64,000 nucleotides of DNA from Pectinatus haikarae (GTDB lineage: Bacteria > Bacillota > Negativicutes > Selenomonadales > Selenomonadaceae). The DNA lies in NCBI RefSeq assembly GCF_015732185.1, contig NZ_WIQM01000004.1:186001-250000 (forward strand), written 5' to 3'. Positions 3,523-26,712 of the stretch are shown one piece after another. The position numbers were made by a program, and so were the translations under genes. Position 1 is the first letter of the stretch. The number at the start of each line of letters is the position of its first letter. Below the pieces are notes generated by a model. It ran no database searches, was not told the origin of the DNA, and saw only the letters and a program-made list of their open reading frames with translations.

Positions 3523-3553
3523 AACATTCTTTGAGTCTTTAAGGGGAAAAGTC

Positions 3554-4396
3554 ATGAAAAAAGCATACTTATTAGGTCTTTATGAGAAATCCATGCCGGA
3601 AATGTTAACATGGGCAGAAAAGCTTCAAGCTGCTAAAAATTCCGGTTTTGATTATGTGGAAATGAGTATCGATGAAACTGAGGCAAAGTTATCCCGGCTG
3701 GATATGACGGACGGAGAATTGGATAAGATCCATGCGGCAATGCGGGCTACGGATTTATCTTTTAAGTCGATCTGCCTCAGCGGTCATCGTAAATATCCTC
3801 TGGGCTGTCCGAACAAACAAAAACAAACACGCGGTCTTGAGATAATGAAAAAAGCAATCCGTCTTGCGGCTGATTTGGGAGCACGGACGATTCAGCTGGC
3901 AGGATACGATGTTTATTATGAAAAAGAAAGTGAACAGACAAAAGCGGATTTTCTCAAAAATTTAAACATTGCCGCAGACATGGCAGCCGCGGAGGGGGTT
4001 CAGCTTGGCTTTGAAACGATGGAAACAGAATTTATGGACACAGTGGAAAAAGCAATGCGCTATGTGAATGATGTGAATTCACCATATCTTGGAGTCTATC
4101 CAGATGCCGGGAATATTACGAATGCCGCACTGCTTTATGGCGGTGATGTAGAATGTGATCTTGAATCCGGACGCGGGCACATTGTGGCAGTGCATCTCAA
4201 GGAAACCCTGCCGGGCAAATACAGAGAAATACCTTTTGGCACAGGACATGTAAATTTTAAGAAAATCATCGATAAAACATGGTCTCTTGGTGTGCGCCGC
4301 TATGTGGCGGAATTTTGGTATAAAGAGGGAGACGACTGGCGAAGAGAGTTGACGAAGGCTGGTAAATTCATCAGAGAATATCTGGACAAAGAATAA
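3554..4396 (+). CDS. ulaE: L-xylulose-5-phosphate 3-epimerase
   Basis: Converts L-xylulose-5-phosphate to L-ribulose-5-phosphate. The protein is 280 residues, matching E. coli UlaE (about 284), and has a TIM-barrel of the xylose-isomerase-like superfamily with acidic and histidine metal ligands suggested by GFETME, YPDAGN, HLKET and EFWY. The start is the ATG at 3554 with GGGGAA at 3543-3548; an upstream in-frame reading would begin inside the terminator and is rejected. Confidence 0.9.
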   Translation: MKKAYLLGLYEKSMPEMLTWAEKLQAAKNSGFDYVEMSIDETEAKLSRLDMTDGELDKIHAAMRATDLSFKSICLSGHRKYPLGCPNKQKQTRGLEIMKKAIRLAADLGARTIQLAGYDVYYEKESEQTKADFLKNLNIAADMAAAEGVQLGFETMETEFMDTVEKAMRYVNDVNSPYLGVYPDAGNITNAALLYGGDVECDLESGRGHIVAVHLKETLPGKYREIPFGTGHVNFKKIIDKTWSLGVRRYVAEFWYKEGDDWRRELTKAGKFIREYLDKE

Positions 4397-23643: not shown

Positions 23644-24492
23644 CTATTGTTCTAAGAATAACTTCCGGCGATATTCGCGCGGGGTTTGTTTGAAAACATC
23701 CTTGAAGGCTCTGGAAAAAGTGGAATAATCATGAAAACCACAGTCAAAGCATATTTTTGTGAGGGGAATATCAGAATGAATCATGGCACGTGCCCGCAGA
23801 AGACGTTTGTTAGTAATATATTGATGTATACTGTAGCCGGTAGCTTTTTTGAAACGGCGCATCATATGAAATTTGCTTATAAAAAACTTTCCGGATAAAA
23901 TATCGATAGAAAGATCCGTAAAAAGGTTATCATTGATATGTTTTAAGATGGGCAAAACTTTTTTATCGTATACAGCGGCATGTATCTCGTCTATTTCGTG
24001 GCTTAACAGAGCGCGGTTGAGCAGAATCATGAATTCAACAAATAAAATTTCACTGTACAGATCATTGGCAAAGCCTTTTGCATAAAAATTTTGTTCTAAT
24101 TTTTTTACATGAAAAATAAGATCATGGCTCTTACCCGGAGGCAGATGCATAACACTTGAATGTTTTGCAGCAGATGTAAAACAAGCTGCTAAGTTTTCAT
24201 CAGAGTGAGAGTATTTTTGTAAAATTTCGGGTGATATATATATAACTATGCGCTCGTACAGTTCATTACCTGTCGGCAGAGGACGGTGTATCTCACCTGC
24301 GCTGACAAAAATGATATCACGCGGCATCAGCGGATAAGATTTGCCTTCGACGGTGTAAGTAACGCTGCCGCTGATAAACAGGATGATTTTGTGGAAAGCG
24401 TGATAATGAAATTTAAGCGGAACAAGATAATCCCGGATGCGAAATATTTTAAATTGCTGGGCAAGATACCCTCTTTTTTCGTAATTGCACAT
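23644..24492 (-). CDS. AraC-family transcriptional regulator with cupin sensor
   Basis: 282 residues: N-terminal cupin-like ligand domain (FHYHAFHKIILFISGSV and GEIHRPL are typical) and C-terminal double helix-turn-helix (about 180-280; CFDCGFHDYSTFSRAFK and TPREYRR are the family signature). Divergent from the gene at 24642, whose promoter it may control; the target and ligand are not evident. Ribosome site AGGAGAAA on the minus strand. Confidence 0.9.
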   Translation of the reverse strand: MCNYEKRGYLAQQFKIFRIRDYLVPLKFHYHAFHKIILFISGSVTYTVEGKSYPLMPRDIIFVSAGEIHRPLPTGNELYERIVIYISPEILQKYSHSDENLAACFTSAAKHSSVMHLPPGKSHDLIFHVKKLEQNFYAKGFANDLYSEILFVEFMILLNRALLSHEIDEIHAAVYDKKVLPILKHINDNLFTDLSIDILSGKFFISKFHMMRRFKKATGYSIHQYITNKRLLRARAMIHSDIPLTKICFDCGFHDYSTFSRAFKDVFKQTPREYRRKLFLEQ

Positions 24493-24641
24493 ATATATTT
24501 CTCCTGATCGATTTTTATTTAAGTTTTAAAATTATTAAATTCATTATAGAGCATTTTTTGCAATATAAAAAGCAGGTTAAGTATTTTATTTGTATAAGCT
24601 GCCTGATATACTGTATCTAATGAAATCGGAGGCGATATATA

Positions 24642-25058
24642 ATGCAGATTGTAATGAATTATGTATTCAGGGGAATTGAATATATGGTATATGAAGCGCA
24701 GGAGTATGTGCCGGGTGCCGCAGGAATAAGACTTCTCGGCAGCCGCAGGTATGGCATAGGTGCCGATCGCATATTGATTATGGAGAATCTCTCCCCCAAT
24801 TCTAATTTTCAGATATTCACCGCTGACGGAAATGAGATTGCGGCAACAGAGCAGGATTATTTAATCCTTAGATGTTACTTGCAACAGAATATTTCGAGTG
24901 AGAATTTCGCAGATACTGATTCTTTTAAGAAGGATATACTAAAAATGGTACGGCAAATAGGAGAAGAAGAAATTTGTAATGCTGAGATACATTTGACTGA
25001 TAATTTCATAGATAAGATGCGGGAAGAGGACAGACAACGTATGGTTTTCGCTTGTTAA
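24642..25058 (+). CDS. Half-length DapF-like protein lacking the catalytic cysteine
   Basis: 138 residues. The middle, RRYGIGADRILIMEN then FQIFTADGNEIA (about 34-70), resembles the N-terminal lobe of diaminopimelate epimerase (RHFGIGADG and FRIFNADGSEAEMCGNG). The MCGNG motif carrying the catalytic cysteine is replaced by an ATEQDYL segment, and the second lobe is missing. So it is unlikely to be an epimerase. It could be a pseudoenzyme or ligand-binding remnant. GGAGGCGA precedes the ATG, so it seems translated. Confidence 0.65.
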   Translation: MQIVMNYVFRGIEYMVYEAQEYVPGAAGIRLLGSRRYGIGADRILIMENLSPNSNFQIFTADGNEIAATEQDYLILRCYLQQNISSENFADTDSFKKDILKMVRQIGEEEICNAEIHLTDNFIDKMREEDRQRMVFAC

Positions 25059-25250
25059 AAGTGACGAGAATATTTTTGGAAAAGATATAGAAATGGCAAC
25101 AAGCATACATTGCACCTTTATCGGAGAATTATTCATAGAAAATTTGTTTGCATTTTTGCGGGATACCAGCATGAAAAACAGCATCATGAGCATTATAGTA
25201 AGATAAAGAGTATTATTGCAGGAAGGCAAAAAGAAGTACGATTTTTCCTT

Positions 25251-25445
25251 TTATTTCATAAAATACATTGCAACCGTTGCGATGGTACAAAATAAAGAGG
25301 CCTGCAGAGAAATCATAATTTTTTCTCTCTGGCTTATTATGCGGAAACGTGTTTTCAGAAAGAAATGTGTGAATAAATAAAAAAAAGGAATCCAGGAAAA
25401 CCAAATGAGCAGAAAACGACAGACAGGATAGACAATATCGGTCAA
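25251..25445 (-). CDS. 64-residue membrane protein downstream of a fluoride riboswitch
   Basis: Small hydrophobic protein with two predicted TM segments (about 10-31 and 45-62) separated by a positively charged loop (KTRFRIISQREK). The start is TTG 25443-25445 with AAAGGAG ten bases upstream on the minus strand. A complete fluoride riboswitch with promoter and terminator lies just upstream on the same strand, so expression should rise with fluoride. I do not recognise the family; it is too short for FluC (about 125 residues, four TM) or CLC-F. The start codon and reality of the ORF are supported by context only. Confidence 0.55.
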   Translation of the reverse strand: MTDIVYPVCRFLLIWFSWIPFFYLFTHFFLKTRFRIISQREKIMISLQASLFCTIATVAMYFMK

Positions 25446-25510
25446 TTGGTATCAACTCCTTTATAAAATATTGGTAAACACCAAAAAGCCTCAGTGGGGT
25501 AAGTGTTAAA

Positions 25511-25590
25511 AATAAAAAAACTCCTACTGTGAGTGATATTACAGTAGGAGTCATTAAAAACATTTTTAACGGCGAACTCCATCGCCTATA
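25511..25590 (-). promoter_or_regulatory. Fluoride riboswitch (crcB motif), minus strand
   Basis: On the minus strand GGCGATGGAGTTCGCC (25586-25571) then AATGACTCCTACTG gives the fluoride aptamer core with the TGACTCCTAC pseudoknot strand. That strand also forms the left arm of a terminator with CAGTAGGAG and a T run (25550-25511). The promoter lies upstream: minus TTGATT (25634-25629), 16 bases, TATACT (25612-25607). Confidence 0.9.
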
Positions 25591-25606
25591 TTCTTCTATT
25601 TTTATC

Positions 25607-25634
25607 AGTATATCATAAATTATTAAAAAATCAA
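25607..25634 (-). promoter_or_regulatory. Promoter of the minus-strand fluoride riboswitch
   Basis: TTGATT, 16-base spacer, TATACT on the minus strand, 20 bases ahead of the aptamer. Confidence 0.75.
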
Positions 25635-25761
25635 TTGATTTTGAGAAAATAGAATTAATGTTGTAACCTTGGTGGATAGTATGTTGGGAGTTGAGTGCGT
25701 ATCATATTTTTTGCTGACTATTATCCAGTTTATGAAATACCGATATATTTTTATGGTCATA

Positions 25762-25790
25762 TTGATAAGATGTCGATAAACTGATATAAT
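25762..25790 (+). promoter_or_regulatory. Promoter of the plus-strand fluoride operon
   Basis: TTGATA (25762-25767), 17-base spacer, TATAAT (25785-25790), about 22 bases ahead of the aptamer. Confidence 0.8.
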
Positions 25791-25810
25791 AAAATTATTA
25801 ATTTTATTGC

Positions 25811-25884
25811 ACGGCGATGGGGTTCGCCAGAAATCCTGTGAAAACAGTAATGACTCCTACCAACTATGGTAGGGGTCATTTTGT
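25811..25884 (+). promoter_or_regulatory. Fluoride riboswitch (crcB motif), plus strand
   Basis: GGCGATGGGGTTCGCC (25813-25828), a short variable hairpin, then AATGACTCCTACC closes the aptamer. The same strand pairs with GGTAGGGGTC and a T-rich tail as a terminator (25852-25884). Fluoride binding should stabilise the aptamer and let transcription reach the DUF190-fluC-HAD genes. Confidence 0.93.
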
Positions 25885-25972
25885 CGTGTGTAAATATTGG
25901 AGGAAGGTGAGGAGCTATAGATGCTTTTGTCAAATACTATGTTTAAATACAAAGAAGATGAGGAGAAATTTT

Positions 25973-26326
25973 ATGGCTAAAATTACCAGCAGGGCCAGGC
26001 GTTTAAGAATATATATAGGAGAGAGGGACAAGTGGCGGGGTAAATCATTATATACAGCGATTGTTGAAAAAGCAAAAGCTCTTGACATGGCAGGTGCAAC
26101 AGTAACCAGAGCTCTTATGGGATACGGTGCTCACAGTCGTATTCATACAGCCAACATCGTTGCACTATCAGGAGACTTGCCCATCATGATAGAGATTATA
26201 GACGGTGAAGAATATGTTGCAAGGCTTTTGCCTTTTCTGGATGAAATGATGGCAGAAGGAATGATCACCATTGATGACGCAGAAGTAATAAAATACGGAC
26301 ATAAGGAGCCATTAAAAGACGATTAA
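25973..26326 (+). CDS. DUF190 protein, FluC partner
   Basis: 117-residue PII-like DUF190 family protein, often encoded beside fluC. It shows the family pattern RLRIYIGERDKWRGKSLYTAIVE early, GATVTRALMGYGAH, and IMIEIIDGEEYV. Thought to be a regulatory or accessory subunit; its exact role is not established. Start ATG 25973 with GAGGAGAAA; the longer frame from 25817 runs through the riboswitch and is rejected. Its TAA overlaps the fluC ATG by one base, suggesting translational coupling. Confidence 0.9.
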   Translation: MAKITSRARRLRIYIGERDKWRGKSLYTAIVEKAKALDMAGATVTRALMGYGAHSRIHTANIVALSGDLPIMIEIIDGEEYVARLLPFLDEMMAEGMITIDDAEVIKYGHKEPLKDD

Positions 26327-26712
26327 TGAGGTGGAAAATTTTGGGAATTATTTTAGTGGCAATCGGAGGAGGAATAGGTTCGGTAGTACGCTATTTGGTA
26401 TCCAGATGGGCAGCGGAAAAAATTAGTTTTGATTTGCCTTATGGAACATTTATCGTGAATATAACAGGGTGTTTTATAATAGGATTTTTTATGGCACTGT
26501 TTACCGAGCGAATGGTAGCTAGCCCTTATTGGCGATTGTTTATTACAGTAGGATTTATCGGCGGGTTGACTACGTTTTCTTCTTTCAGTTACGAGTCATT
26601 ACAGCTGTTGTTAAAGGCTAATTTTCTGCAGGCTTTTTGCAATATAGGAGGAAACGTGATAATAGGAATTTTTGCTGCATGGCTTGGAGTCACTGTCGCT
26701 AGATTAATTTGA
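26326..26712 (+). CDS. crcB: Fluoride ion channel FluC/CrcB
   Basis: Dual-topology four-TM fluoride exporter channel, dimeric, in the inner membrane. 128 residues with GGGIGSVVRYLVSR, GTFIVNITG and the pore/Na+ motif GFIGGLTTFSSFS. Controlled by the fluoride riboswitch upstream. Confidence 0.96.
   Translation: MRWKILGIILVAIGGGIGSVVRYLVSRWAAEKISFDLPYGTFIVNITGCFIIGFFMALFTERMVASPYWRLFITVGFIGGLTTFSSFSYESLQLLLKANFLQAFCNIGGNVIIGIFAAWLGVTVARLI

Follow-up and report, generated by a model that had tools for sequence, protein, structure and literature searches.

In one intergenic region of Pectinatus haikarae, two fluoride riboswitches face away from each other, the plus-strand switch ahead of a fluoride exporter operon and the minus-strand switch ahead of a hydrophobic frame of 64 codons. 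The reading that we favour, at about even confidence, is that these are two separate fluoride-ON switches, of which the plus unit induces the exporter operon and the minus unit a lineage-specific, 64-residue accessory membrane hairpin. Positions are given for the window, the whole 64,000-nucleotide stretch of DNA that was analysed.

An Rfam covariance scan of the whole window returned two full-length, divergent matches to the fluoride aptamer family RF01734, each covering model positions 1–64 and both, the minus-strand aptamer included, exceeding the gathering cut-off of 34 bits (Table 1). The gap between the two aptamers is 208 nt, and no further Rfam match was found at E ≤ 1 between 25200 and 26000. 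A search of the whole genome returned this pair as its sole two fluoride aptamers. The initial annotation had called two fluoride aptamer–terminator units, pointing in opposite directions within 230 bases, and this call holds; judged by sequence and structure, both are genuine switches with a predicted function.

Table 1. Features of the divergent fluoride-switch region and copies of the A1 family. Positions refer to the window unless a locus (L number) is given; some A1 ranges run from stop to stop.
Feature	Position	Strand	Remarks
AraC-type regulator gene	23644-24492	-	
DapF-like ORF, 138 aa	24642-25058	+	faint diaminopimelate-epimerase signal, E 0.056; counterpart at same G003 locus
Candidate gene: hydrophobic 64-codon ORF starting with TTG, probable hairpin of two helices	25251-25445	-	
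Shine-Dalgarno AAAGGAG	25456-25462	-	10 nt before TTG of 64-codon ORF
Overlapping terminator hairpin with 11-bp stem and T-tract, minus unit	25513-25551	-	computed fold
Fluoride riboswitch aptamer RF01734, minus unit	25538-25595	-	44.2 bits, E 5.5e-9 (whole window)
Promoter-like site TTGATT-16-TATACT, minus unit	25607-25634	-	9/12; TG precedes second hexamer
Promoter-like site TTGATA-17-TATAAT, plus unit	25762-25790	+	11/12
Fluoride riboswitch aptamer RF01734, plus unit	25804-25866	+	43.1 bits, E 1.3e-8 (whole window)
Overlapping terminator hairpin, 14-bp stem, plus unit	25849-25880	+	computed fold
DUF190 (PF02641) protein	25973-26326	+	Pfam, E 3.8e-37
fluC/crcB fluoride channel	26326-26712	+	PF02537 108.8 bits (cut-off 32.9); TIGR00494 117.4 bits (cut-off 80.45)
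HAD-like protein, 157 aa	26740-27213	+	weak: Hydrolase_3 19.3 bits, Pfam cut-off 20.9
A1 copy	L082:802-1023	-	
A1 copy	L084:11220-11543	-	
A1 copy	L095:3565-3831	-	
A1 copy	L095:4039-4251	-	
A1 copy	L078:4959-5177	-	
A1 copy	L089:13271-13483	+	
A1 copy	L098:5160-5528	+	

Both leaders fold to energies far below those of shuffled sequences (z of −6.4 for the minus and −5.3 for the plus leader), and the terminator stems, of 11 bp and 14 bp respectively, absorb the CUCCUAC at the aptamer’s 3′ side. The minus-unit hairpin is missed by a simple terminator scan, whose loop limit of 8 makes it overlook long-loop terminators generally. Each unit had also been credited with its own sigma70-type promoter, in agreement with the promoter-like sites that end 11 nt (minus) and 13 nt (plus) upstream of the aptamers. 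Such sites number 8 in the region against 7.2 expected, a chance level, and it is therefore the placement of these two that carries weight.

In the fluoride riboswitch class, the leader RNA forms a terminator when fluoride is lacking, and the Mg–fluoride-bound aptamer withholds its 3′ strand from that terminator, so that transcription continues. The window layout is that predicted for a fluoride-ON transcriptional switch. Two transcriptional switches would fire in opposite directions from the one intergenic region; a terminator would form in each leader without fluoride, and with Mg–fluoride bound the aptamer would keep its CUCCUAC from the terminator and allow read-through. The plus unit would then induce DUF190–fluC–HAD, that is, a fluoride exporter operon, and the minus unit would most likely induce the 64-residue membrane hairpin, specific to this lineage and accessory to the fluoride response. 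An aptamer with an overlapping terminator, found here on both strands, is likewise what is described for the transcription-terminating type of the crcB motif in the excerpted text of PMC2864571.

The plus unit was identified directly as an exporter operon, and its predicted make-up, DUF190–fluC–HAD-like after the plus switch, is that of a standard fluoride-export operon. This was the operon originally assigned to the switch; DUF190 and FluC are confirmed by their profiles, and the HAD assignment is weak, lying below the Pfam cut-off. Other operons in the Negativicutes (for example, G182, G180, G255 and G304, with genes labelled by resemblance) have switch, DUF190 and fluC in the same order as the plus unit; the window differs from them in its additional switch, which points the other way, and in a small flanking ORF. 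In the literature searched, no paper mentions both a fluoride riboswitch and DUF190.

For the minus unit, the TTG start and the AAAGGAG of the initial annotation were borne out, whereas its two transmembrane segments are only borderline, the best Kyte–Doolittle windows of 19 residues reaching 1.68 and 1.66. A single-sequence AlphaFold2 model places helices at residues 5–32 and 34–63 (mean pLDDT 73.5), a model that might equally come from other hydrophobic sequences of like size. The product had been described as unlike FluC, and searches of Pfam, NCBIfam and PHROGs (E ≤ 1) and of PDB chains gave it no match. The homologues looked for among relatives were not found either: across 59 related genomes there was nothing beyond chance-like matches (28 of 60 genomes, its own included, gave some match at E ≤ 1), 177 pattern matches in genome contigs of close relatives yielded none that was confirmed, and plasmids gave no match. 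The best foreign match (G026, E 8e-5) was rejected as chance hydrophobic similarity because it contains a stop and lies antisense within a 970-aa frame.

A few hundred proteins from fluoride clusters, used as queries against positions 24600–25900, brought up no convincing relic of a degraded fluoride gene. The best matches were weak (E 0.005 over 11 residues), as was one on the minus strand at about 24946–25167 (E 0.006, 30% identity over 80 residues).

Coding potential was scored with a codon-phase model of second order, for which 53 genes of the window served as the training set. The 64-codon frame scores −0.016 bits per codon and falls among intergenic frames, whereas held-out 64-codon pieces of real genes have a mean of 0.244 and a 5th percentile of 0.031 (n = 212). 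Hydrophobic coding pieces, which overlap one another, have a mean of 0.249 and a 1st percentile of −0.052 (n = 105), and shadow ORFs under the same model a mean of −0.080 (s.d. 0.126, n = 137). Among 20,000 Markov sequences modelled on the region, 19.6% contained a frame of at least 64 codons, and 2.9% one that also had two hydrophobic segments; the strand that carries the frame is 40% T. Any frame of at least 64 codons together with a Shine–Dalgarno sequence, a feature picked post hoc, was present in 0.35% of simulated regions.

Fluoride switches lacking a gene candidate are rare, with one among the 7 closely inspected of 117. This sample comprises 118 rows (those above the cut-off and one at 33.9 bits) less one for which there was no sequence, and includes the two switches of the window. 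By a mechanical rule, with individual inspection confined to the failures, 110 of the 117 have a same-strand frame of at least 110 codons starting within 600 nt; the minus unit of the window satisfies the rule solely by virtue of an overlapping frame of 116 codons with its start within the aptamer. Three of the seven that fail lead to two-helix genes of the A1 family described below, two to a fluC that is displaced or has a broken neighbour, one to a short soluble frame and one to nothing.

The initial proposal, a minus switch driving a real small membrane protein, is plausible: the Shine–Dalgarno sequence and the rarity of gene-less switches speak for it, and the lack of a homologue and the coding score, below the 5th percentile of real gene pieces, speak against it. 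Translation of the frame we judge slightly more probable than its absence. Translation, membrane location and any role in fluoride tolerance are what we infer for the frame; the further proposal that it is a new fluoride-stress component is plausible and goes beyond what one genome supports.

The minus switch may, with tentative but real probability, be an orphan, genuine in itself, whose gene was lost or never translated, the 64-codon frame being a chance product of a T-rich strand. The low coding score and the frequency with which frames of this length arose in simulation both fit such a history, and there are precedents. In genome G191, an above-cut-off fluoride switch (L115, approximately 3531–3593) has no same-strand frame of at least 60 codons for more than 1 kb, and a riboswitch without known function is tabulated as an orphan in the excerpted part of a review on C. 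difficile (PMC11477304). A unit long dead would not, however, be expected to retain promoter-like site, aptamer and 11-bp terminator all together, and both the 0.35% frequency of frames with a Shine–Dalgarno sequence and the scarcity of gene-less switches count against an orphan.

The four congeners have one switch each, always before fluC; none has a minus switch, and none has a counterpart of the 64-codon frame. The nearest, G003, is syntenic with the window through an AraC-type regulator, a DapF-like ORF, a switch and fluC (78% identity), and the gene that follows fluC there we take, by recognition, to be a serine dehydratase. The G003 locus differs from the window in having its switch and fluC without the minus unit, DUF190 or the HAD-like gene. 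A global alignment of the two loci told little past the DapF-like gene, since it forced non-homologous parts together.

Of the 59 positions aligned between the plus aptamer and the G003 aptamer, 49 agree (score 29.0); between the minus and the plus aptamer it is 42 of 48, with long gaps (score 11.5). The plus aptamer is thus closer to that of G003 than to its minus neighbour, and this alignment, together with the differing terminators, disfavours an origin of the minus unit by recent duplication of the plus switch.

We consider it improbable that the product of the minus unit is the RNA itself, a transcript running antisense to the DapF-like ORF, or continuing in the direction of the AraC-type regulator gene, and controlling them. 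The AraC-type gene does share the minus strand, and the simple scan found no minus-strand terminator-like site between the 64-codon frame and 24450, but that scan overlooks long-loop terminators. Moreover, counterparts of both genes are present at the G003 locus, whose one switch precedes fluC; since G003 keeps the two genes without a minus switch, neither needs one.

An accessory membrane hairpin, our preferred product of the minus unit, would resemble in form a family of small proteins found in the fluoride clusters of Sporomusa-type bacteria. This family, which has no name and which we call A1, consists of two-helix proteins of 65–74 residues. In a profile search of 300 sampled genomes of the class, six held strong copies, seven in all, and in 2 of the 7 the matched stretch crosses a stop; at E ≤ 0.1, matches extend to 59 of the 300 genomes, those beyond the strong copies being weak and many of them embedded in proteins some 480 residues long. 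Each of the seven strong copies is located downstream of a fluoride switch on its own strand, the distance ranging from about 0.3 kb (G045, G176) to 7.5 kb with intervening genes (G258). Six are near DUF190 or fluC, with labels mostly by resemblance, and the G180 copy, which has a divergent C-terminus, follows enolase. Remnants of A1 genes were also seen in G045 and G176.

None of the five members scanned against Pfam gave a match above cut-off (the strongest, Wzy_C_2, reached 21.6 against 28.5 bits), and none of six matched NCBIfam. In a sample of 398 genomes of the phylum, evidently without the six A1 genomes, four gave matches, all of them weak.

A1 proteins and the 64-residue ORF are alike in size, hairpin layout, loop charge and position near DUF190 and fluC, with no detectable sequence relationship between them. 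That the ORF is a far-diverged A1 member is very unlikely: similar length, an adjoining DUF190–fluC and a hairpin with a basic loop, with K31, R33 and R40 at ungapped family positions, would suit membership, but the family profile gives the ORF −0.6 bits and no match in G000. Its semi-global profile score of 2.65 is below the mean for shuffled sequences (4.69, s.d. 2.64), and 239 of 300 segment-shuffled controls score at least as high. Profile and shuffle control together thus disfavour it as a family member.

More speculatively, and we think this rather unlikely, two-helix tiny membrane proteins may have been invented repeatedly as fluoride-induced proteins, a class that has been overlooked, with the window ORF as an independent solution that perhaps tunes FluC or the leak of HF and protons across the membrane. 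Genes under fluoride switches amount to a guilt-by-association catalogue of the parts of fluoride tolerance, and a switch dedicated to one tiny membrane protein would, if true, contribute a component that belongs to neither export nor metabolism. The recurrent A1 family is a better first target than the window ORF.

Genes associated with fluoride switches in the excerpted text of PMC2864571 and PMC11139923 include exporters, Na+/H+ antiporters, enolase, pyrophosphatase, mutS, HAD proteins and formate hydrogen lyase; it is the former paper, of 2010, that counts mutS among the genes of the crcB motif. The minus-unit frame matches none of the genes named for fluoride switches in those excerpts. 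At the level of titles and abstracts, the literature searched held nothing on a fluoride switch with a tiny membrane protein, nor on divergent pairs.

The divergent arrangement itself is not new. Among 125 listed hits in 68 genomes (118 rows plus 7 selected rows below the cut-off), such pairs occur in five genomes: that of the window, G026, G195, G228 and G258. In the other four, which belong to the same class, two RF01734 aptamers stand back to back as in the window, here 95–174 nt apart, but long genes stand on both sides, whereas in the window one side has only a tiny unassigned frame. A MutS-like protein lies on one side of all four (Pfam MutS_V in G026 and G228, by resemblance in G195 and G258). 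On the opposite sides are a dynamin-like GTPase, a glutamine synthetase, a 287-aa protein that matches nothing in Pfam, and an enolase, named by its sequence. At other loci, sequence resemblance, as opposed to a profile match, underlies the names enolase, antiporter and serine dehydratase and most DUF190 and fluC labels.

Tandem fluoride switches on one strand, 31–173 nt apart, were seen in G045, G047, G176, G187, G203 and G258, with three switches in a row in G258; one tandem partner each in G203 and G258 falls below the Rfam cut-off. Right after tandem switches stands an aquaporin-type MIP channel gene in G176 (L084:12135-12965, minus strand) and in G045 (L082:1720-2550, minus strand), the MIP identity being a Pfam match to the G176 copy. 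A 287-aa protein with the motif SPPDxWG and no Pfam match (L078:14783-15646, minus strand) is encoded directly under a fluoride switch, and look-alikes of it follow switches in G045, G176, G182 and G192.
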